Positions 187-51,660 of a stretch of DNA of 64,000 nucleotides are shown in pieces. The translations under genes were made by a program, and so were the position numbers. The first letter of the stretch is position 1, and every line of letters starts with the position of its first letter. Below the pieces are notes generated by a model. That model had not been told where the DNA came from. It did no database searches and saw only the letters and a list, made by a program, of their open reading frames with translations. This DNA is from Linum tenue. Lineage: Eukaryota; Streptophyta; Magnoliopsida; Malpighiales; Linaceae. Location: assembly GCA_946122785.1 (NCBI GenBank), contig CAMGYJ010000011.1, positions 1,240,001-1,304,000 on the forward strand. The letters are read 5' to 3'.

Positions 187-2332
187 TCATGGCTTCAGAA
201 CCCTCTCGATTGCAGCAGCATAGAATTCCTTGGGCATGGTACCAACCACAGTCTCTTGCTTTTCTCCATTCTTGAAAAGCAGAACCACAGGCACAGCCTT
301 AATGTCATAGTCCTCAGCAATTTCCGAATCATTGTCCGCATTGAGCACGAAGCACTGGATTCGTCCTTGATACTCCCCAGCAAGCTCATCAATCACACGG
401 TGGACCATTTTACAGGGGCCACACCAACTTGCATGGAACTCAACTAAGACCGGGGTATCGCTTTTCAGAATTGACTTCTCCCAGGAGTCCTTGGTAACAA
501 CTGCTGCTGCTGAACATACCCAAAAACATAGTGGTTAAAGAAGCCTGTCTGATTACTAGACTCCAGATGTTCACTGAAATCTGTGTATGACAACTTTGAT
601 TAAACCAACTATAAAGAAAGCAACAGAAAACAACACTAAAGATAATCAAATCCCCAAGATTCTTCTCAGGAAACTCTCAGCTAAGGAAGATACCATCTGC
701 ATGAGATTTTGGCTCATCTAATACTATTCTGGCCATACAGATAGATCCCTTAAGGTACAAGCATATGCCAAATGTTCCTACCAGGCCAGTAACTAAGCAT
801 TCAAACTAATCATTGTCATTGAAAACATCTAGTAACCATCCATTGCTTCAGTGGATTGCTCAACTTCCTTGGAAGAGGAGCTTTCTTTTGTATAAGGCTG
901 GCATAGTTCAAATAAAGCATGAAAAGAAGCATTTATAAGTATCAACAAGCACCAGATTCGGCAAAGGGACAGCGTGAGAGCTCCTCGAATGCACAATCTA
1001 ATCATTCAATACTCTCAACTTCATACATGAAATGAAAATCAAGCATTCTGAGATTACCATTCAATACTCTCAACTTCATACATGAAATGAAAATCAAGCA
1101 TTCTCCAATCTCAGAGGGAATGCAGGAGGACTCTGAACTTAGAACCATCGTCTCCAACAGCATATTAGCCTAACAGGATCGGAATATGAGTGTAGAAACA
1201 GATAATGCAATGATGAAGACTATGACTATCATCGTATTTGGAGAGGCGAATTATGAATTAAGGTTACAGGAAGATACAAGAGATGTGTTTCCAAACTGCT
1301 CTAATCAAAAGAACAGCAGGTACAGATAACAAAAACCAATGCTAACATTCTCGTTCCCTTTCCTTCATTGAAATGAAAGCTCAGCCATTGAATTGCTTTC
1401 TGCCAGTCTCTGAATCAAGTGCCTAACGATAATGTGCGAAAGCTCTATTGGCCTCTGCCATTCTATGGGTCTCCTCCCTCTTCCTTATAGCATCACCACT
1501 TCCTTTGGCGGCATCGATCAGCTCATTACTTAGTTTGAACACCATGTCCCTACCTTGCCTCTTTCGAGCTGCCACCAACAACCAACGAATCGCAAGCGCT
1601 TTGCCCTGAGTGGTATCTACCTCAACAGGAACCTGTTGAGTGGCACCCCCAACTCGCCTAGATTTCACAGCCACATCAGGAGTAACTCCTTGCACTGCGT
1701 CCCTCAACACTGCCAACGGATTCTGCCCCGTCTTTTCCTGAACCCTTCTCAAGGCTCGGTACATGATGAAATAAGCCAGTGACTTCTTCCCATTTTTCAG
1801 GACTCGGTTAACGAACATGCTAACTAAACGATTACGGTAAACTGGGTCGGGTTTTGCCGTTTTCTCTTTCTTGCCACCTTAACAATTGACAAATTTTCCG
1901 TCAGAGAAGCAAGCGCACAATTGAATCAAAATCTTAAACCACTCCGACGGGAAGAATCCCACCAATGAAATCAGAAATGCTCGTTAAACAGAAACTGGTG
2001 TAAGCCCTAAGCATGAATTTGACGGACAACTATGGCACGCAATCGGAAATTGAAATGCATCAGATGGGAAAACGGAAGGGACGGAATGGGAAACATTTCA
2101 AGGGTTGTGTAGCTAAGATGAGGAAGTTTCTACCTTTGGATCCGCGCATGCAAACGACCTTGAGGGGAGAAGACAACGGAGAGCTGGTTAAACGGAGACC
2201 TAATCCTCTGACGTCGGCGGAGAGGTTGAAAGGGAAGGAGATGGCGGAGCTGGAACTGAGCTCCGCCGGACGGAGTTTGGCAGAAGCCGAGAGAGGAGGA
2301 GGGCGGAAGCACGCGGAAGTAGAAGCCGCCAT
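187..2332 (-). CDS. TRXM3: Thioredoxin M3, chloroplastic (shares exon 1 with RPS7)
   Basis: Thiol-disulfide oxidoreductase of the chloroplast m-type group; the Arabidopsis orthologue (GAT1) is linked to redox control and plasmodesmatal transport. Exons are complement(2134..2332) and complement(187..509), 173 aa. Residues 1-66 form a Ser/Ala-rich transit peptide without acidic stretches. The thioredoxin fold follows, with active site WCGPCK at residues 95-100, the cis-Pro region [14 protein letters not shown], and an end in AAIERVLKP. Exon 1 ends in phase 1 and the acceptor at 510/511 restores frame, giving [15 protein letters not shown]. The acceptor lies in a CAG repeat, so in-frame NAGNAG variation by one to three Ala is possible. 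No alternative transit-peptide exon was found between 510 and 1422. The roughly 1.6-kb intron contains the complete second exon of RPS7, so TRXM3 mRNA must skip it. The family identification is from remembered m3-type sequences. Confidence 0.88.
1003..1104. repeat. 55-bp-period direct repeat within the TRXM3 intron
   Basis: About 47 bp beginning CATTCAATACTCTCAACTTC at 1003 recurs almost exactly at 1058. It lies between the RPS7 stop codon and the thioredoxin exon, so it is in the RPS7 3' UTR or downstream intron. The rest of 510-1422 shows no coding sequence. Confidence 0.85.
1423..2332 (-). CDS. RPS7: Plastid-type ribosomal protein uS7, nuclear-encoded (transferred rps7)
   Basis: Small-subunit 70S ribosomal protein that binds the 3' domain of 16S rRNA. 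Exons are complement(2134..2332) and complement(1423..1877), 217 aa. Exon 1 is the TRXM3 transit-peptide exon (66 aa, phase 1). Exon 2 opens in matching phase after an AAG acceptor and encodes almost the whole of plastid rps7, from [19 protein letters not shown] to [18 protein letters not shown]. Only about the first eight residues of the usual plastid protein are replaced. The sequence follows the plastid protein and not mitochondrial RPS7; for example [14 protein letters not shown] and [18 protein letters not shown] are plastid-type. The reading frame is intact, with many substitutions relative to typical plastid rps7, which argues for a functional gene and against a recent passive plastid DNA insertion. 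Polyadenylation must occur between 1422 and about 510. Confidence 0.9.
2134..2332 (-). other. Shared chloroplast transit-peptide exon of TRXM3 and RPS7
   Basis: This 199-bp coding exon holds the ATG (2330-2332) and ends with an AAAG/GTAGAA donor at 2134/2133 in phase 1. Both downstream acceptors, at 1878 (rps7) and 510 (thioredoxin), are in the matching phase, so one exon can serve two proteins. Its product is rich in Ser, Ala, Pro, Leu and Arg and has almost no acidic residues, as expected of a stromal targeting peptide. Confidence 0.88.
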
Positions 2333-2508: not shown

Positions 2509-2581
2509 CACACCCGGTGGGACTCGAACCCACAATCGTTTGATTAGAAGTCAAACGCCTTATCCATTAGGCCACGGGTGC
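2509..2581 (-). tRNA. tRNA-Arg(UCU): tRNA-Arg (anticodon UCU)
   Basis: On the minus strand a 73-nt cloverleaf starts GCACCCGTGG. It has an A box (TGGCCTAATGG), an anticodon stem around CTTCTAA (anticodon TCT), and a T arm with the B box GGTTCGAGTCC. The acceptor stem GCACCCG pairs with CGGGTGT, including one G-T pair, and the discriminator is G. There is no intron and no encoded CCA, as expected for a nuclear gene. Confidence 0.96.
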
Positions 2582-12865: not shown

Positions 12866-13622
12866 TGTTTACACCATAAATTTTGTCTTGTACCACATTG
12901 GTGAGTTACAAGATAATCAAGGAGTTTATAAGGCCACACCCATTATAACAATTAATGTTGTTTAAATTGGGCCTTATGGATATTGATTTTAAGTCCAAGT
13001 CACTAGCTCATTAATGAGCATGGACATGATTCAATAAGTGACATGGGCCTCTCGTAAGAGGTCATGCCATGCCACGAGATGGCATGAAAATTTCTAAGTA
13101 TGAGAAGTCCATGGCCATGAATGAAGAGGCCATGCCGCCCCATGGCCAAGGCCTAATGACTGAAAAATAAACTAAGTCTGGAAGAGGTACATGCCACTTC
13201 AAGGAGAAGCACGTGCCGCCTCACGAGAAGGGGCATGGACGCAAGAAAAGATACTAAGTATGAGAGGGCCATGTTGTGTCACGAGAAGGGTCACAAACAT
13301 GACTGAGAAGTTCATGGCTGCGAATGAGGAGGCCATGTCGTCGCATGAGCCGAAATATACTAAGTCTGAGAAGGCCATGCCGCCTCATGAGAAGGGTCAT
13401 GTGCATGATTAAGAGGTCTATGGCCGTGTCATGTGATGGCCATGGACGCGAAGCAAGAAGAATTAGAAATGATTGAAAATACTAAGTATGGAAAGTCCAT
13501 GCCGCCTCATGAGAGGGGCCTTGTGCATGATTGAGAGGTCCATGCCACCTCACGAGGATGGCCATGGACACGAATGAGAAGGTCGTGGTGGTGGAGCATT
13601 ATATCACTAGTGACTAAGTCCC

Positions 13623-13751
13623 AAGAAGGCCATGGACATGAGTAAGAAGTCCATGGTCGTAAGACAAGAAGGCCATGGACATGAGTAAGAAGTCCATGGC
13701 CGCGAGACAAGAAGGCCATGAACATGAGTAAGAAGTCCATGGTCGCGAAGC
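13623..13751 (+). repeat. 43-bp tandem triplication in the 5' LTR
   Basis: Three units starting AAGAAGGCCATGGACATGAG at 13623, 13666 and 13709, slightly diverged at their ends. The same array occurs at 19294-19422 in the 3' LTR, so it predates the insertion. Confidence 0.88.
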
Positions 13752-14035
13752 AAGAAGACCACGACCCCCTTTGCGAGACACTACATGCTCGTCAAAAGAC
13801 TAGCATGGCACGAGATTCAGAACAAGACCAGGCGAGGCAAGATACACTCCAAAACCCACGACGGTTCCAAGAGAGGCACCTAGGTGGTTGAAGGAGTAAC
13901 CACCACTCTGAGGAAGCAAGGAGCGGTTCTTTTTGGGAGTTGTCCAAGAGGCGGTTTATTATCGAAGAAGGAGGAGCGGTTCTTTGTAGCAGTTATCCAA
14001 AAAGCGGTTTTCTATGGCGGTTACCTCCTCGGGGC

Positions 14036-14043
14036 TATAAATA
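14036..14043 (+). promoter_or_regulatory. LTR TATA box (5' LTR)
   Basis: TATAAATA in the context GGGGCTATAAATAAGAGG, about 300 bp before the LTR end, where Pol II would start the element's RNA. The 3' LTR has the same box at 19707-19714. Confidence 0.75.
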
Positions 14044-14347
14044 AGAGGAGGGGTCGACAGAGACAAGGGTTCCAAGACCAACACTCTGACACACATGTCA
14101 AGTTTATCCTTTACCTTTTCTCTATCATGTAGCCATAGATGTAGTTCGTAGTTTGGAGCTCTCGCTGAACCTCCATAGGAGTAGAAGTAATTTAATTTAG
14201 ATTCCGTTCCCAAAAACCATCAATCAAACACCCTCGTTCGAACTTTGTTTGAAGAGGTGTGAGCCGTGTCTTAGAAATCGTTGTCCATAGAAGTCAAAGG
14301 TGCAATCCATCTCAATTCAACACAAGAAGTTTTCTCGCCGGAAAACA

Positions 14348-14367
14348 AATTTGGCACACCTAGTGGG
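14348..14367 (+). promoter_or_regulatory. Probable tRNA primer-binding region of the LTR element
   Basis: The sequence directly after the 5' LTR reads AATTTGGCACACCTAGTGGG. The layout (TTTGGC... then GTGGGAC) resembles plant Ty3 primer sites, but I could not assign the tRNA. Confidence 0.5.
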
Positions 14368-18536: not shown

Positions 18537-20018
18537 TGTTTACACCATAAATTTTGTCTTGTACCACATTGGTGAGTTACAAGATAATCAAGGAGTTTAT
18601 AAGGCCACACCCATTATAACAATTAATGTTGTTTAAATTGGGCCTTATGGATATTGATTTTAAGTCCAAGTCACTAGCTCATTAATGAGCATGGACATGA
18701 TTCAATAAGTGACATGGGCCTCTCGTAAGAGGTCATGCCATGCCACGAGATGGCATGAAAATTTCTAAGTATGAGAAGTCCATGGCCATGAATGAAGAGG
18801 CCATGCCGCCCCATGGCCAAGGCCTAATGACTGAAAAATAAACTAAGTCTGGAAGAGGTACATGCCACTTCAAGGAGAAGCACGTGCCGCCTCACGAGAA
18901 GGGGCATGGACGCAAGAAAAGATACTAAGTATGAGAGGGCCATGTTGTGTCACGAGAAGGGTCACAAACATGACTGAGAAGTTCATGGCTGCGAATGAGG
19001 AGGCCATGTCGCCGCATGAGCCGAAATATACTAAGTCTGAGAAGGCCATGCCGCCTCATGAGAAGGGTCATGTGCATGACTAAGAGGTCTATGGCCGTGT
19101 CATGTGATGGCCATGGACGCGAAGCAAGAAGAATTAGAAATGATTGAAAATACTAAGTATGGAAAGTCCATGCCGCCTCATGAGAGGGGCCTTGTGCATG
19201 ATTGAGAGGTCCATGCCACCTCACGAGGATGGCCATGGACACGAATGAGAAGGTCGTGGTGGTGGAGCATTATATCACTAGTGACTAAGTCCCAAGAAGG
19301 CCATGGACATGAGTAAGAAGTCCATGGTCGTAAGACAAGAAGGCCATGGACATGAGTAAGAAGTCCATGGCCGCGAGACAAGAAGGCCATGAACATGAGT
19401 AAGAAGTCCATGGTCGCGAAGCAAGAAGACCACGACCCCCTTTGCGAGACACTACATGCTCGTCAAAAGACTAGCATGGCACGAGATTCAGAACAAGACC
19501 AGGCGAGGCAAGATACACTCCAAAACCCACGACGGTTCCAAGAGAGGCACCTAGGTGGTTGAAGGAGTAACCACCACTCTGAGGAAGCAAGGAGCGGTTC
19601 TTTTTGGGAGTTGTCCAAGAGGCGGTTTATTATCGAAGAAGGAGGAGCGGTTCTTTGTAGCAGTTATCCAAAAAGCGGTTTTCTATGGCGGTTACCTCCT
19701 CGGGGCTATAAATAAGAGGAGGGGTCGACAGAGACAAGGGTTCCAAGACCAACACTCTGACACACATGTCAAGTTTATCCTTTACCTTTTCTCTATCATG
19801 TAGCCATAGATGTAGTTCGTAGTTTGGAGCTCTCGCTGAACCTCCATAGGAGTAGAAGTAATTTAATTTAGATTCCGTTCCCAAAAACCATCAATCAAAC
19901 ACCCTCGTTCGAACTTTGTTTGAAGAGGTGTGAGCCGTGTCTTAGAAATCGTTGTCCATAGAAGTCAAAGGTGCAATCCATCTCAATTCAACACAAGAAG
20001 TTTTCTCGCCGGAAAACA
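18537..20018 (+). repeat. 3' LTR
   Basis: 1,482 bp, the same length as the 5' LTR, with two differences noticed. The target duplication AGAAC follows at 20019-20023. Confidence 0.94.
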
Positions 20019-20106
20019 AGAACAAAATAAATCGAATAGTATACAGTGTTTTTATATCTTATGGTATCATAATCTTTCTTCCACCTTTTTTTCTAATGGC
20101 AATGAG

Positions 20107-42469: not shown

Positions 42470-45400
42470 CGGTCGATTTTTTTGAATACTATTATTCCTC
42501 CATTTTTAAGGAGTTTTGTTATAGATTTTGACCGATTTTTTTGAATGCTATTATTCACTAATTTTAAAGACTATCCTTAACAGATTTTGGACGTTTTTCA
42601 AATACTATTATACATCGATTTTGAATGCTATCTATCACAAATTTTGGCTGAATTTTTTGAATGCTATTAGACTGATTTAGAAGGCTATTCATAACATATT
42701 TTGACTAATTTTTTGAGTGCTATTATTCACTGATTTTGAAATCCATCACAGAATTGAGCCTGTTTTTTGAATGTTATTATTCACCAATTTTGAAGGTTAT
42801 CTATCACAAATTTTGCCTGAATTTTTTAATGCTGTCATTCGCCAATTTTGAAGGCTATTCACCACATATTTTGGTTAATTTTTGAATACTATTACTCACC
42901 AATTTTCAAGGCAACCCATAATACATTTTGACCAATTTTTTTGAATGATATCATTCATCCATTTTGAAAACTGTCTTTCACATATTTTGGCCAATTTTTT
43001 GAATGCTATTTTTCACTGATTTTGAAGGCTATCCACCACATATTATGACCTAGTTTTTTTAAAAGATATTATTCACAGATTTTGAACGCTACAAATTACT
43101 AATTCAGCCAAAAGTTGTTCTTCAACGATGATTCAGGCCATTTAAGCACAAATTTGGTAGTATTTCTTCCGAGATAATTTTTGGCATATTACAAATGGGT
43201 ACCATCATAGATTTCGGGCGATTTTTTCGAAATGTCATTTTCTTTGGATTTTGGATGCTACAAATCACGAATTCAGCCCGGGGTTATTCCCCACCGATAA
43301 TGAAGTCTATTGATCCTATTATCCACCGATGATTAAGTGTATTATGAACCGATTTGGGCGAATTTATTTCTGGATGACATTTTCGTATTTTTTAGGTATT
43401 TTTTTTTGGAAATGCAATTTTTTTGGATTTTGAAGGCTACAGATCACGGATTCAACCCGAGACTATTTTCCACCGATGATTAAGTCCATTAAGCACCAAT
43501 TTGGCGAATTTATTTTATCATGGCATTTTCATATTTTTTGGGCAATTTTTTTCGAAAGAACATTTTCCTTGGATTTTGAAAGCTACAAATCACAGATTCG
43601 GCCTGACGCTATTCTTCAACGATAATTAAGTTCATTAAGCACCGACTTGGGCGAATTTCTTCCACGTCCATTTTTGGCAAGTTACAAAGGAGTACCATCA
43701 CAGATTTTGGGTGATTTTTCCGAAATGCCATTTTCTTCAATTTTGGAGACTACATATCACGGATTCAGTCTGAGGCTATTCTCCAACTATAATGATGTCT
43801 ATTGATCCGATTCTCCACCAATGATTAGGTCAATTAAGCACCGATTTGAGTGAATTTATTTTCGGATGACATTTTTGTAATTTTTTGGGAGATTTTTTTT
43901 CGAAAGCCTATTTTCCTTGGCTTTTGAAGGCTACAGATAACTGGTTCGACCTTAGACTATTCTTCAACAATGACTAAGTCCATTAAGCACCGATTTGGGT
44001 GAATTTCTTCTGGGTACATTTTTGACAGATTTCTAAGGAGTACTATCACTCATTTCGGGTGATTTTTCCGAAATGCCATTTTCTTTCGATTTTGGAGGCT
44101 ACAGAACATGAATTCTGCCCGATTCTATTGTCCATTGATAATAAAGTCTACTGATTCGATTCTCCATTGATGATGGGTCCATTAAGAACCGATTTGGGAG
44201 AATTTATTTTTCGGATGACATTTTCGTAATTTTTTGACCGTTTTTTTTTTTCGAAAGACCTTTTTCCTTTGATTTCGAAAGCTATAGATCGCGGATTCGG
44301 CCTATGACTATTTTTCAACAATGATTAAGTCCATTAAGCACCGATTTGGGCGAGTTTTTTCTAGGTCTATTTTTGGTAGATTCAAAAGGGGTATTATCAT
44401 AGATTTCAAGCGATTATTCCAAAATGCCTTTTCTTTCGATTTTGGATGATACAAATCACGAATTAAGCCAAGGTTATTCTCCACCGATAATGAAGTTTAT
44501 TGATCCTATTCTCCATCGGTGATTAAGTCCATTAAGTATCAATTTGGCGAATTTATATTCGGACGACATTTTCGTAGTTTTTTGGACGATTTTTTTCGAA
44601 AGTCAATTTTCCTTGTATTATGAAGGCTAAAAATCACGGATTCAGCATGAAGTTATTCTTCAACAATTATTAAGTCCATTAAGCACCGATTTGGGCGAAT
44701 TACTTTTGGGTCCATTTTTCACAGATTCTACATATCACAGGTTTCGGGCAATTTTTCCGAAATGTCATTTTCATTCGATTTTGGATGCTACATATCACTG
44801 ATTCAGTCCGAGGCTGTTTTCCCCCGATAATGAAGTATATTTATCCTATTATTCACCGAAGATTAAGCCTATTAAGCACAAATTTTGGCAAATTTATTTT
44901 CGGTTGACATTTTCTACTTTTCTGACGATCTTTTTCGAAAGGCTAGTTTCTTTGGATTTTGAATGCTACAGATCACTTATTCAGCTTATGGTTATTCTTC
45001 AACGATTATTAAGTCCTTTAAGCACCGATTTGTGTGAATTTCTTTCGGGTCTATTTTTGACAAACTTCAAATGGGTACTATCATAGTTTTCGGGCAATTT
45101 TTCCGAAATGCAGTTTTCTTTTCGATTTGGAAACTATAGATCACAGATTCAGTCCAGACTATTCTCCACCGATAATGAATTCTATTGATGCGATTCCCCA
45201 CCGATGATTAAGTCCATTAAGAACCTATTTGAACGAATTTGTTATTGGATGACATTTTGAGAATTTTTTGGGTAATTTTTTCCAAATGTCATTTTCGTTG
45301 GATTTTGAAGGCTACAGATCAAGGATTCGATCTGAGGCTATTTTTCAAAGATGATTCCATTAAGCACCGATTTAGGCGAATTTCTTCCAGGTCCATTTTT

Positions 45401-45658
45401 TGCAAATTCCAAAGGGGTACTATCACAGATTTCGGCCGATGAAGTGTCATTTCTTTTGATTTTGGAGGCTATAGATAACGGAGTCAGCCTAAGACTATTC
45501 TCAAATGATAATGAAGTCTATTAATCCGATTCTTAACCGATGATTAAATCCATTAAGCACCGATTTGAACGAATTTATTTTCGGATTACATTTTGTAATT
45601 TTATTGGCGATTTTTTTTGAAAGACCATTTTTCTTAGATTTTGAAGGCTATAGATCAC

Positions 45659-47199: not shown

Positions 47200-50100
47200 A
47201 ATGAGGCTATTCTTCAATGATGATTAAGTCCATTAAACACTAATTTGGGCGATCTATTCCTAGTCCATTTTTGACATATTCCAACGGGGTACCATCACAA
47301 ATTTCGTGCAATTTTTCCAAAATATCATTTTCTTTCGATTTTGGAGGATGTTGATTACGGATTCAGCCCATGCTATTCTCCAACAATAATGAAGTCTATT
47401 GATCCGACCCTCCACCAATTATTAGGTTCATTAAGCACCAATTTGTGCATATTTATTTTCGGATGACATTTTCGTAATATTTTGCGTGATTTTTTCCGAA
47501 AGATAATTTTCCTAAGATTTTGAAGCCTACAAATCACGGATTCGGCCTGAGTCCATTCTTCAACAATGAATAAGTCCATTAAGCACCGATTTGGACAAAT
47601 TTCTTTCGGGTTTGTTTTTTGCATATTCAAAAGGGGTACCATCACTAATTTCAGGCGATTTTCCCGAAATGTCATTTTCTTTCGAATTTGGAGGCTATAG
47701 ATAATGGATTCAGCCCGAGGCTATTCTCCACCGATAATGAAGTCTATTGATTCGATTCTCCACCGATGATTAAGTCTATTAAGCACAAATTTGGGTGAAT
47801 TTATTTTCGGATGACATTTTCGTAATATTTTGCGTGATTTTTTCCGAAAGACCATTTTCCTATTATTTTTAAGGCTACAGATCATGGATACGGTCTGAGT
47901 CTATTCTTCAACAATGAATAAGTTCAGTAAGCACCGATTAGGACAAATTTATTCCGGGTCCATTTTTGGCAGATTTCAAAGGGGTACTACTATTACTAAT
48001 TTCAAGCGATTATTCCGAAATGTCATTTTCTTTCGAATTTGGAGGCTACAGTCTACAGATCACGGATTTAGCCTGAGGCTATTCTCCACCGATAATGAAG
48101 TCTATTGATCCGGTTCTCTACCGATGATTAAGTCCATTAAGCACCAATTTGGCGAATTTATTTTCGGATGACATTTTCGTAACTTTATTGGTGATTTTTT
48201 TGAAAGGTCATTTCTTTAGATTTTGAAGGCTACAAATCACAGATTAAGCCTGAGGCTATTCTTCACCCATGATGAAGTCCATCAAGCAACGATTTCAGGG
48301 GATTTCTTTCGGTTCCATTTTTTGCGGATTCCAAAGGGGTACCATGACAGATTTTGAGCGATTTTTCCAAAAATGTCATTTTCTTTCAATTTTGAAGGCT
48401 ACAGATCACAAATTTATCTCAAGGCTATTCTCCACTAATGATGAAGTCTATTGATCCTATTCTCCACCGATGATTAAGTCGATCAAGCACCGATTTTGGT
48501 GGATTTATTTTCGTATGACATTTTCGTAACGTTTTGGGTGATTTTTTTAAATGTAATTTCTTTAGATTTTGAAAGCTACAGATCATAGATTTAGCCTTAG
48601 GCTATTCTTTACCGATGATTAAGTCCATTAAGCACTGATTTGACTGGATTTCTTTCGAGCCCATTTTTGGCATATTCCAAAGGGCTACCATCACAAATTT
48701 CAGGCGATTTTTTCGAAATGCCAATTTTCATTCTATTTTGAAAAGTATAGATCACGGATTCGGCATGAGGTTATTCTCCACCGATGATGAAATTTGTTGA
48801 TCCTATTTTCCACTGATGATTAAGTCTATCAAGCACCAATTTGGGCGCATTTATTTTCGGATGGCATTTTAGTAACTTTTTGTGTGATTTTTTTCGAAAT
48901 GCCATTTCTTTAGATTTTGAAGGCTACAAATCAGAGATTCGGCCTGAGCATATTCTTTACTTATGATTAAGTCTATTAAGCACCGATTTGTCCGGATTTC
49001 TTCCTGGTCTATTTTTGGGTTGATTTATGGCTACAGATTAAGTCTATTAAGCACAGACTTAGAGCAATTTTTAAGGCTACAGATCATGGATTCGGCCCGA
49101 TGATATTCTCCTCCGATGATGAAGTTTGTTGAACCTATTCTCCATCGATGATTAAGTCCATCAAGCACATATTTGGGTTGATTTATTTTCGGATGACATT
49201 TTCGTAACTTTTTGGTCAATTTTTTTCGAAAGACCATTTCTTTAGATTTTGAAAGCTACAGATCTCAGATTCGGCCTAATGCTATTCTTCACCAATGATT
49301 AAATCCATTAAGCACCGATTTGGACGGATTTCTTACGAGTCCATTTTTGGCGATTCCAAAGGAGTACCATCACAAATTCCGGGGGATTTTTATGAAATGC
49401 CAATTTTCATTCTATTTTTAAAGCTATGGATCACAAATTTGGCCCGATGATATTCTCCACCGATGATGAAGTTTATTTATCCTATTATCTATCGATGATT
49501 AAGTCTATTAAGCATCGATTTGGGCGGATTTATTTTCTGATGATATTTTCTTAATTTTTTGGGCATTTTTTTCGAAATACCATTTTCCTTTGATTTTGAA
49601 GGCTTTAGATCACGGATTCGGCCTCAGTCTATTCTTCACCGATGATTGTATCAATTAAGCACCGTTTTGGACTGAATACTTTCGGGTATATTTTTTGCAG
49701 ATTCCAAAGGGGGTATCATCATAGATTTCAGGCGATTTTTCTAAAATGTCATTTTCTTTTGATTTTGACGGGTAAAGATCAAGAATTAGGCCCGAGACTA
49801 TTCTCCACTGATGCTGAAGTCTACTGATCCTATTCTCCACCGATGATTAAGTCCATCAAGCACCAATTTGAATGGATTTATTTTCGATGAAATTTTCGTA
49901 ACTTTTGGGCGATTTTTCTCGAAAGACCATTTCGTTAGATTTTGAAGGCTATAGATCACAAATTTTGGCATGATGCTATTCTTCACCGATTATTCAGTCT
50001 ATTAAGCACCAATTTGCATAGATTTGTTTCAGATCCATTTTTGGCGGATTCCAAAGGGCTGCCAATACCATCACAAATTTCGGGCGGTTTTTTCGAAATG

Positions 50101-51660
50101 CCATTTTCTTTCGATTTTGAAGGCTACAGATAACGCATTCGACCCGAGGCTATTCTCCATAGATGATGAAGTCTATTTTTCCTATTCTCCACCAATGATT
50201 AAGTCCATTAAGCACCGATTTTTGGATGATATTTTCGTACCTTTTTTTGCGATTTTCCTTTGAAAGACCATTTTGTTTGATTTTGAAGGCTAAATATCAG
50301 GGATTTGGCATGAGGCTATTCTTCACTGATGATTGAGTTCATTAAGCCTCGGTTTGGGTGGATTTCTATCGGGGCCATTTTTTGCGGATTCCAAAGTGTA
50401 CCCATTACAGATTTCAGGTGATTTTTAGGAAATGCCATTTCTTTCAATTTTGAAGGCTACAAATCACGGATTCGGGTTGAGACTATTTTCAACCGATTAT
50501 GAAGTTTGTTGATCATATTTTCCACCGATGGTTAAGTCCATTAAGCATCAATTTGGTCGGATTTATTTTTGGATGTCAGTTTTGTAACTTTTTGTGCGAT
50601 TTTTTTCGAAAGGCCATTTCCTTGGATTTTGAAGGCTATAGATCACGGATTCGGCTTGAGGCTATTCTTCACCGATCATTAAGTCCAGTAAGCACTGATT
50701 TGGGCAGATTTCTTCTGGGTCCACTTTTCGCTGATTTTAAAAGGCTTTTTCAATTTTGAAGGTTATTCATCACATATTTCAGGCAATTTTTTTTCGAAAT
50801 GCCAATTTCTTTTGATTTTAAAGGTTATCCATAAAAAATTTGGCCGATTTTTGGGAATGCTATTTTTCACCGATTTTGAATTTTATTAATCGCAAATTTT
50901 GGCCAATTTTTTTGAACACTATTATTCACCAATTTTGAAGGCTATTCATAAAAGATTTTGACCGGTTTTTGGGAATGCCAATTTTTCATCGATTTGGAAG
51001 TCTATCGATCAGAGAATTTTTGCGAGTTTTCAGAATGCTATTATTAACCTATTTTGTGAGGCTTTCCGTCACAGAGTTTAGCCGATTTATGGGAAAGCAA
51101 TTTTCAACAATTTTGAAGGCCATCCATCATAGATTTTTCTTGATTTTTTGAAATGCTATTTTCATCAATTTTGAAGTCTATCCAAGTATCCATCAAAAAA
51201 TTTGTCCGATTCTTTTGAATGGTATTATACATCGATTTTTAAGGTCATCATTTACATTTTTTGGACAATTTTTGACAATGCTATTATTCACCAATTTTGA
51301 AAGCTATCCATAAAAGATTTTGACCGATTTTTGGGAATGCATTTTCACCGATTTGGAAGTCTATCCAACAGAGAATTTTTGCGAGTTTCCGGAATGCTAT
51401 TATTAACCTATTTTGTGAGGCTTTCCATTACAGAGTTTAGCCGATTTATGGGAAAGCAATTTTCAACAATTTTGAAGGCCATCCATCATAGATTTTTCTT
51501 GATTTTGTGGAATGCTATTTTCATCAATTTTGAAGTCTATCCATAAAAGAAAAATCCGATTCTTTTGAATGGTATTATACATCAATTTTTAAGGTCGTCA
51601 TTTACATTTTTTGGATAATTTTTGACAATGCTATTTTCACCTATTTTGAAAGCTATCCAT

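Follow-up and report, generated by a model that had tools for sequence, protein, structure and literature searches.

Plastid-type rps7 nested in a nuclear thioredoxin m3 gene of Linum tenue: a probable single capture in Malpighiales with two predicted plastid products

How can a single nuclear gene come to supply plastids with two proteins? We addressed this question at a locus on the minus strand of a 64,000-nucleotide stretch of Linum tenue DNA (hereafter the window, meaning that whole stretch), in which a full plastid-type rps7 frame lies between an exon for a transit-peptide-like leader and the exon for the thioredoxin domain of thioredoxin m3 (TRX m3). Our analysis makes it very likely that rps7 was captured once by an intron of TRX m3, and that one gene gives rise to two plastid products through alternative splicing. 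The locus and its surroundings contain the following features (a slash in a motif marks the splice junction).

2509-2581, minus strand: tRNA-Arg (TCT), just upstream of the locus in all four loci found; no part in the mechanism
2332-2134, minus strand: shared exon 1, ATG and 66-codon plastid-transit-like leader plus 1 base; 199 nt; phase 1
1878-2133, minus strand: intron from exon 1 to rps7; 256 nt; ends in TTAAG/, an in-frame TAA directly preceding the junction
1423-1877, minus strand: rps7 exon, 151 residues including the junction glycine; stop codon TAG at 1423
1253-1289, minus strand: 37-nt block 3′ of the rps7 stop, containing TGTA motifs and unchanged across all four loci
510-1422, minus strand: remainder of the host thioredoxin intron, from the rps7 3′ region up to the acceptor TTCAG/CAGCAGCAG
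187-509, minus strand: thioredoxin m3 exon, with WCGPCK and a TGA stop; exon 1 plus this exon gives a 173-amino-acid TRX m3 precursor

The window contains a complete organelle-type gene within an intron of a nuclear gene whose product serves that organelle, arranged as an earlier note on this DNA had described it: a 66-codon transit-peptide exon ends in phase 1, and two downstream acceptors are in the right phase, one opening the rps7 frame (1877-1423) and the other the WCGPCK thioredoxin frame (509-187). The claim that no second transit-peptide exon is present also held, as a tblastn search against the window found exon 1 at E 6e-38 and all else at 0.19 or above. The leader contains 17 S/T, 8 K/R and 2 D/E among its 66 residues, and plastid targeting is predicted from such sequence features only. 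Exon 1 ends at 2134 with the donor AAAG/GTAGAA. Joining it to the acceptor TTAAG/GTGGC at 1878/1877 gives a 217-amino-acid product in frame, and joining it to TTCAG/CAG at 510/509, where in-frame CAG repeats offer further possible acceptors at 506, 503 and 500, gives the thioredoxin precursor; both acceptors join exon 1 in frame in the window and in all four loci described below. Because an in-frame TAA lies directly 5′ of the rps7 acceptor in each of the four loci, and because the first methionine of the rps7 exon, which has no start codon at its beginning, is its residue 21, full-length S7 would require splicing to an upstream exon. A possible place for the rps7 mRNA to end is the 37-nt block (1253-1289).

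The S7 part matched Pfam Ribosomal_S7 (PF00177) at E 9.9e-56 and scored above the cut-off of TIGR01029 (rpsG_bact), and its closest PDB match was 4v61_AG, ‘30S ribosomal protein S7, chloroplastic’; the exon can be assigned to chloroplast-type ribosomal protein S7 (uS7c), with a full-length domain. A protein search with the 217-amino-acid product, which the earlier note had proposed, bore out the S7 identity, the best match being a 218-amino-acid L. tenue protein (98%). The thioredoxin part matched Pfam Thioredoxin (PF00085) at E 3.3e-25, and many of its nearest relatives among the matches listed are named thioredoxin M3, chloroplastic; on the basis of WCGPC and the nearest named relatives, the exon can be assigned to thioredoxin m3. 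The host gene appears to matter to the plant, since root development is arrested in the Arabidopsis gat1 mutant, which is defective in thioredoxin m3 (PMC3969529).

A search of the L. tenue genome (692 Mb in 17 contigs, so that locus counts are lower bounds) revealed at least four full rps7 copies with 97-100% protein identity to the query: one in the window and the others at C11:2.367 Mb, C7:41.587 Mb and C7:40.666 Mb. Exon 1, rps7 and thioredoxin follow in this order, with the same splice-junction sequences, in 4/4 loci found. The thioredoxin domain led to the same four places at 96-100%, with the next matches at 47% or less, and no full-length copy of rps7 or of TRX m3 was found outside the four loci in the 17 contigs; the remaining rps7-like places are partial, some with stops. 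With the transit peptide as query, identity was 85-100% at the four loci and 58-71% at four weaker matches. The weaker matches (L109, L110, L111 and L112) lie on C8 and C4, and at L109 and L111 no rps7 or thioredoxin was seen among frames of at least 50 amino acids. The neighbour upstream of the locus carries Pfam Carboxyl_trans in all three open frames tested; it is presumably the methylcrotonyl-CoA carboxylase beta gene. The two C11 blocks, 1.1 Mb apart and inverted, are 97% identical. At least two loci are certain, because the C11 and C7 blocks are only about 80% identical; a haplotype or assembly artefact does not explain the four loci as a whole, although the close pairs may still be artefacts.

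Some further repeats were seen. Between rps7 and thioredoxin, a 55-nt tandem duplication (window about 1003-1104, minus strand) is present in both C11 loci and in neither C7 locus. Elsewhere in the window, a 1483-base sequence occurs twice in direct orientation (12866-14348 and 18537-20019), with 99.9% identity and a spacing of about 5.7 kb, and may represent a young retroelement's terminal repeats. Long satellite-like arrays, whose repeat unit measures about 345 bases, occupy 43465-45658 and 47202-50746.

To relate the locus to other plants, we compared RPS7 with TRX m3 precursors in 11 sets besides the window. The two precursors are identical up to the junction in six sets, from Ricinus (66 amino acids), Jatropha (64) and four Passiflora species (63-65; P. 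oerstedii, P. contracta, P. pittieri and P. tenuiloba, with the leader common to both products in all four). The Ricinus pair is named isoform X1 and isoform X2, both from a contig of equal size. These identical transit peptides support the alternative splicing that we infer for L. tenue. At the second L. tenue locus, which formed one set, P0001 and the chimeric P0002 are identical over 194 residues because both contain S7. In Turnera (one set), the thioredoxin model (P0194) is without a transit peptide, and both proteins come from contigs of equal size. Since the transit peptides have diverged in L. grandiflorum, L. perenne and Erythroxylum, and the contigs differ in size, rps7 and thioredoxin are separate genes in these three sets. 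The L. tenue leaders match the thioredoxin leaders of the other two Linum species at 66-75%, as against 51-60% for their RPS7 leaders.

Additional states were found in other sequences. One Dovyalis model (P0007) contains transit peptide, S7 and thioredoxin in this order. In Populus, EANRAF, an S7 motif, stands between the leader and thioredoxin in one of three thioredoxin models checked, which hints at a decayed rps7 copy. P0005 (216 amino acids, with a Salicaceae-like leader) has leader and S7 in one open frame on contigs of at most 1,030 bases; it is probably a spliced transcript, because an intron should interrupt the frame in genomic DNA.

We then placed the S7 proteins in a tree of 46 rows (16 + 5 + 25), hand-picked among the matches listed, from which the plastid rows of Cordyline, Hebecarpa and Jasminum were dropped. 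Sixteen S7 rows, including two from L. tenue, have a trx-m3-like leader and, together with the unplaced P0246, make up the set starred in the tree (97/90); in several of these rows the leader was called trx-m3-like by similarity only, the same-species thioredoxin partner not being compared. On their own the 16 rows are no clade in the free tree, as P0246 falls inside; forcing them together was not rejected (p-AU 0.416), which does not in itself show a clade. We take the families in the starred set to be Linaceae, Erythroxylaceae, Salicaceae, Passifloraceae with Turnera, and Euphorbiaceae. In 14 of the 16 rows the leader is followed by glycine, which is also the residue at position 5 of plastid S7; the two exceptions are P. 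pittieri, with serine, and the Turnera model, which runs on through the intron. The tree and the junction suggest one old rps7 transfer common to the five families. It is conceivable instead that Passiflora, Linum and other lineages each acquired rps7 in their trx-m genes independently, and the extended S7 proteins P0021 and Aquilegia P0251, which have unrelated leaders, suggest that separate transfers do occur. We regard independent entry as improbable, given that all 16 rows with a trx-m3-like leader fall in the one starred set and that 14 of them have the junction glycine of plastid position 5.

A single capture would raise the question of where the intron and its splice acceptor came from. 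We compared four other thioredoxin loci that were fetched (L093-L096, 43-47% identical), leaving out two more loci on C8 at 37%. In all four, GCAG/ occurs in phase 1, no more than one codon away from the corresponding point; other AGs lie close by, and GCAG/ is the likely acceptor. Because these loci share phase and, within one codon, place, the host thioredoxin intron is probably older than the rps7 insertion. For the acceptor of rps7, we used a plastid-derived fragment at C3:9.69 Mb (L086), whose frame shares 96% identity with a plastid S7 along a 77-residue stretch. Aligned without gaps to the rps7 exon from the junction onwards, the fragment is identical at 150 of 222 bases, compared with 47-74 at 12 other offsets (-6 to +6); upstream of the junction, 7 of 20 bases are identical to the locus. 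In this alignment CGAG/GT, at codons 4-5 of plastid rps7, stands exactly opposite TAAG/GT of the nuclear acceptor. The predicted 3′ splice site of rps7 coincides with this plastid AG/GT, and an acceptor-like AG/GT in the right phase was consequently present already in the plastid coding sequence, where it may have been used as an acceptor from the start.

We propose the following mechanism. Plastid rps7 would have entered nuclear TRX m3 once, before several families of Malpighiales separated, as a copy landing in the phase-1 intron that lies between the exon for the transit peptide and the thioredoxin domain. The plastid AG/GT at codons 4-5, its phase fitting by chance, would have been turned into a 3′ splice site. 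Exon 1 would then be spliced either to rps7, with polyadenylation before the thioredoxin exon, or past rps7 to the thioredoxin exon, so that plastids receive both thioredoxin m3 and ribosomal protein S7 by way of a single promoter and a single transit peptide. Later duplications in L. tenue would have brought the unit as a whole to four loci, with both products kept in all of them. The splicing choice, the shared promoter, polyadenylation, import and the replacement of the plastid copy are predictions drawn from sequence.

The L. tenue gene models bear on whether exon 1 is indeed shared. No plain product of transit peptide and thioredoxin is present among the L. tenue matches listed. One deposited model, P0002, is a 301-amino-acid S7-thioredoxin chimera, in which part of rps7 is joined to the thioredoxin exon, and fits the second C11 locus (C11b, L082). 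Another deposited thioredoxin model, P0123, has a different leader of 35 residues. P0123 has the structure expected if the two products used different first exons, such that rps7 took over exon 1 and thioredoxin m3 is made from a promoter between rps7 and the thioredoxin exon, and its leader is encoded in the window at about 1167-1062 (frame 1002-1169). However, both C7 copies have an 8-nt gap that throws the leader out of frame, and both lack the 55-nt duplication in which the donor of this leader lies. Such a leader occurs in none of 17 aligned trx-m3 sequences (Turnera P0194, outside the alignment, has yet another), and its authors describe the first annotation of the L. tenue S-locus as an Augustus prediction made without RNA-seq (PMC11114476), a description that may or may not extend to the present locus. 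A separate thioredoxin promoter and first exon as in P0123 are disfavoured, this structure not being conserved in the C7 copies, and we give different first exons very little chance compared with a shared exon 1.

Selection on both coding parts was measured by pairwise dN/dS (NG86), which here rests on few sites and dates nothing. In the four C11-C7 pairs, dN/dS was 0.037-0.064 for rps7 and 0.046-0.069 for thioredoxin; C7a and C7b are almost identical, with too few differences for a ratio. Identity between C11 and C7 is 93-95% in rps7, as against 85-86% in the preceding intron and about 87%, with many gaps, in the stretch after rps7. Between C11a and C7a, 26 of 31 differences in rps7 are synonymous, where 23% would be expected under neutrality (P 2e-12), as are 20 of 25 between C11b and C7a and 10 of 10 between C11a and C11b (P 5e-7). 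These results show that rps7 is under strong purifying selection and that the thioredoxin coding part is likewise under purifying selection between chromosomes. Between C11a and C11b, thioredoxin has non-synonymous changes only (dN 0.008, dS 0), too few for a ratio. The divergence between the two C11 copies is uneven: rps7 (window 1423-1877 against L082) has 10 synonymous changes in 455 nt, whereas the preceding 255-nt intron is 99.6% identical and thioredoxin has zero synonymous changes. Perhaps this unevenness reflects gene conversion.

It is highly unlikely that the nuclear rps7 is a plastid insertion without function, left open by chance, and that S7 still comes from plastid rps7. A flax plastome reported with rps7(2) and no pseudogenes (PMC12470162) would fit this idea, but four open copies have dN/dS of 0.04-0.06 between chromosomes and conserved junctions, nuclear S7 forms a supported set across families, and elsewhere in the genome rps7-like stretches are incomplete, with stops in some. 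In flax, plastid rps7 may still be in use. The L. tenue assembly yielded no plastid-type rps7 of full length, but the plastome may be absent from it. The plastid-derived insertion at C3:9.69 Mb (L086/L115) has CTG at the position of the initial methionine of plastid S7 proteins such as P0032, and the same CTG is found in a separate insertion, L113 (C7:56.01 Mb; 95.8% over 72 bases to the C3 query stretch); the insertions L114 and L103 stop short of the rps7 start. A 164-amino-acid protein, P0116, has the same residues as the CTG insertions at the start region. These sequences hint that Linum plastid rps7 has lost its usual start codon, which editing or another start could rescue. Further searches gave no confirmed match to plastid rps7 DNA among viral contigs; among other genome contigs, the best 80 of 358 loci were 43-51% identical and bacterial by title, and S7 protein against plasmids returned bacterial records under 60% identity.

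This kind of arrangement is already known from Passiflora, and the Linum locus adds to it. According to their abstract, Shrestha et al. reportedly found that rps7 had moved into an intron of a nuclear thioredoxin m-type gene. The Passiflora event, to which the earlier note had pointed, is indeed in the literature: a thioredoxin m-type gene supplied the RPS7 transit peptide there (Shrestha et al. 2020, GBE evaa123, as cited in PMC8941745 and PMC8429499). Linum resembles Passiflora in the plastid gene, in the kind of host gene and in the transit peptide common to RPS7 and an M3-type thioredoxin; it differs from the report, as far as cited, in belonging to another family and in offering genomic exon/intron structure and four loci. 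Two other precedents named in the note were likewise confirmed. The rpl32 gene in the SODcp gene of Rhizophoraceae, Salicaceae and other Malpighiales is also a ribosomal gene of plastid origin lying within a nuclear gene whose product works in plastids, with alternative splicing and, in some lineages, separation by duplication (PMC8941745), although both the transferred gene and the host gene are different. In rice and maize, rps14 is an organelle ribosomal gene joined to a nuclear gene, sdh2, with one targeting signal serving both through alternative splicing (PMC7795075); unlike in L. tenue, where only the transit peptide is shared, the system is mitochondrial and the S14 precursor retains 225 SDH2 residues.

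Plastid rps7 is reported as a pseudogene in Hypericum ascyron, Cratoxylum and Marathrum, and H. ascyron, of the same order as L. tenue, also has a nuclear RPS7 with a predicted plastid transit peptide whose source was unclear to the authors (PMC8941745). In Ceriops and Avicennia lanata, plastid rps7 has Ka/Ks above 1, which was read as adaptation (PMC8945693). Relaxed constraint through a nuclear copy could be another reading for Rhizophoraceae, and is only an idea because Avicennia belongs to Acanthaceae. In the open-access literature found, we saw no report of rps7/thioredoxin nesting outside Passiflora, the taxon sampling of the Passiflora paper itself aside. Relative to that literature, the present analysis adds the Linum locus, its four retained copies, a probable single origin across five families, a predicted acceptor at plastid codons 4-5, and a host intron matched by other thioredoxin loci.

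What would such a capture mean for Malpighiales? We lean slightly towards a reading in which one capture near the base of the order left its descendants with two sources of S7 for a very long time, and lineages resolved this differently. On this account, one gene with two products would persist in L. tenue (in four copies), Ricinus, Jatropha and Passiflora; the functions would have split after duplication in L. grandiflorum, L. perenne and Erythroxylum; and the nuclear copy would have decayed, possibly, in Populus. A splice acceptor would not have had to arise anew for the capture, because an AG/GT of compatible phase is present at codons 4-5 of plastid rps7, and the selection signal in Rhizophoraceae might be relaxed constraint. 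The locus gives a genomic and comparative frame to a transfer described, in the literature found, for one genus. The joined, duplication-split and seemingly decaying states would allow a test of how two functions share a promoter and a targeting signal, and how they come to be separated. The locus also bears on what makes an inserted organelle gene usable, as the coding sequence seems here to have brought its splice site along. Finally, tests for selection on plastid rps7 in Malpighiales should allow for a nuclear copy.
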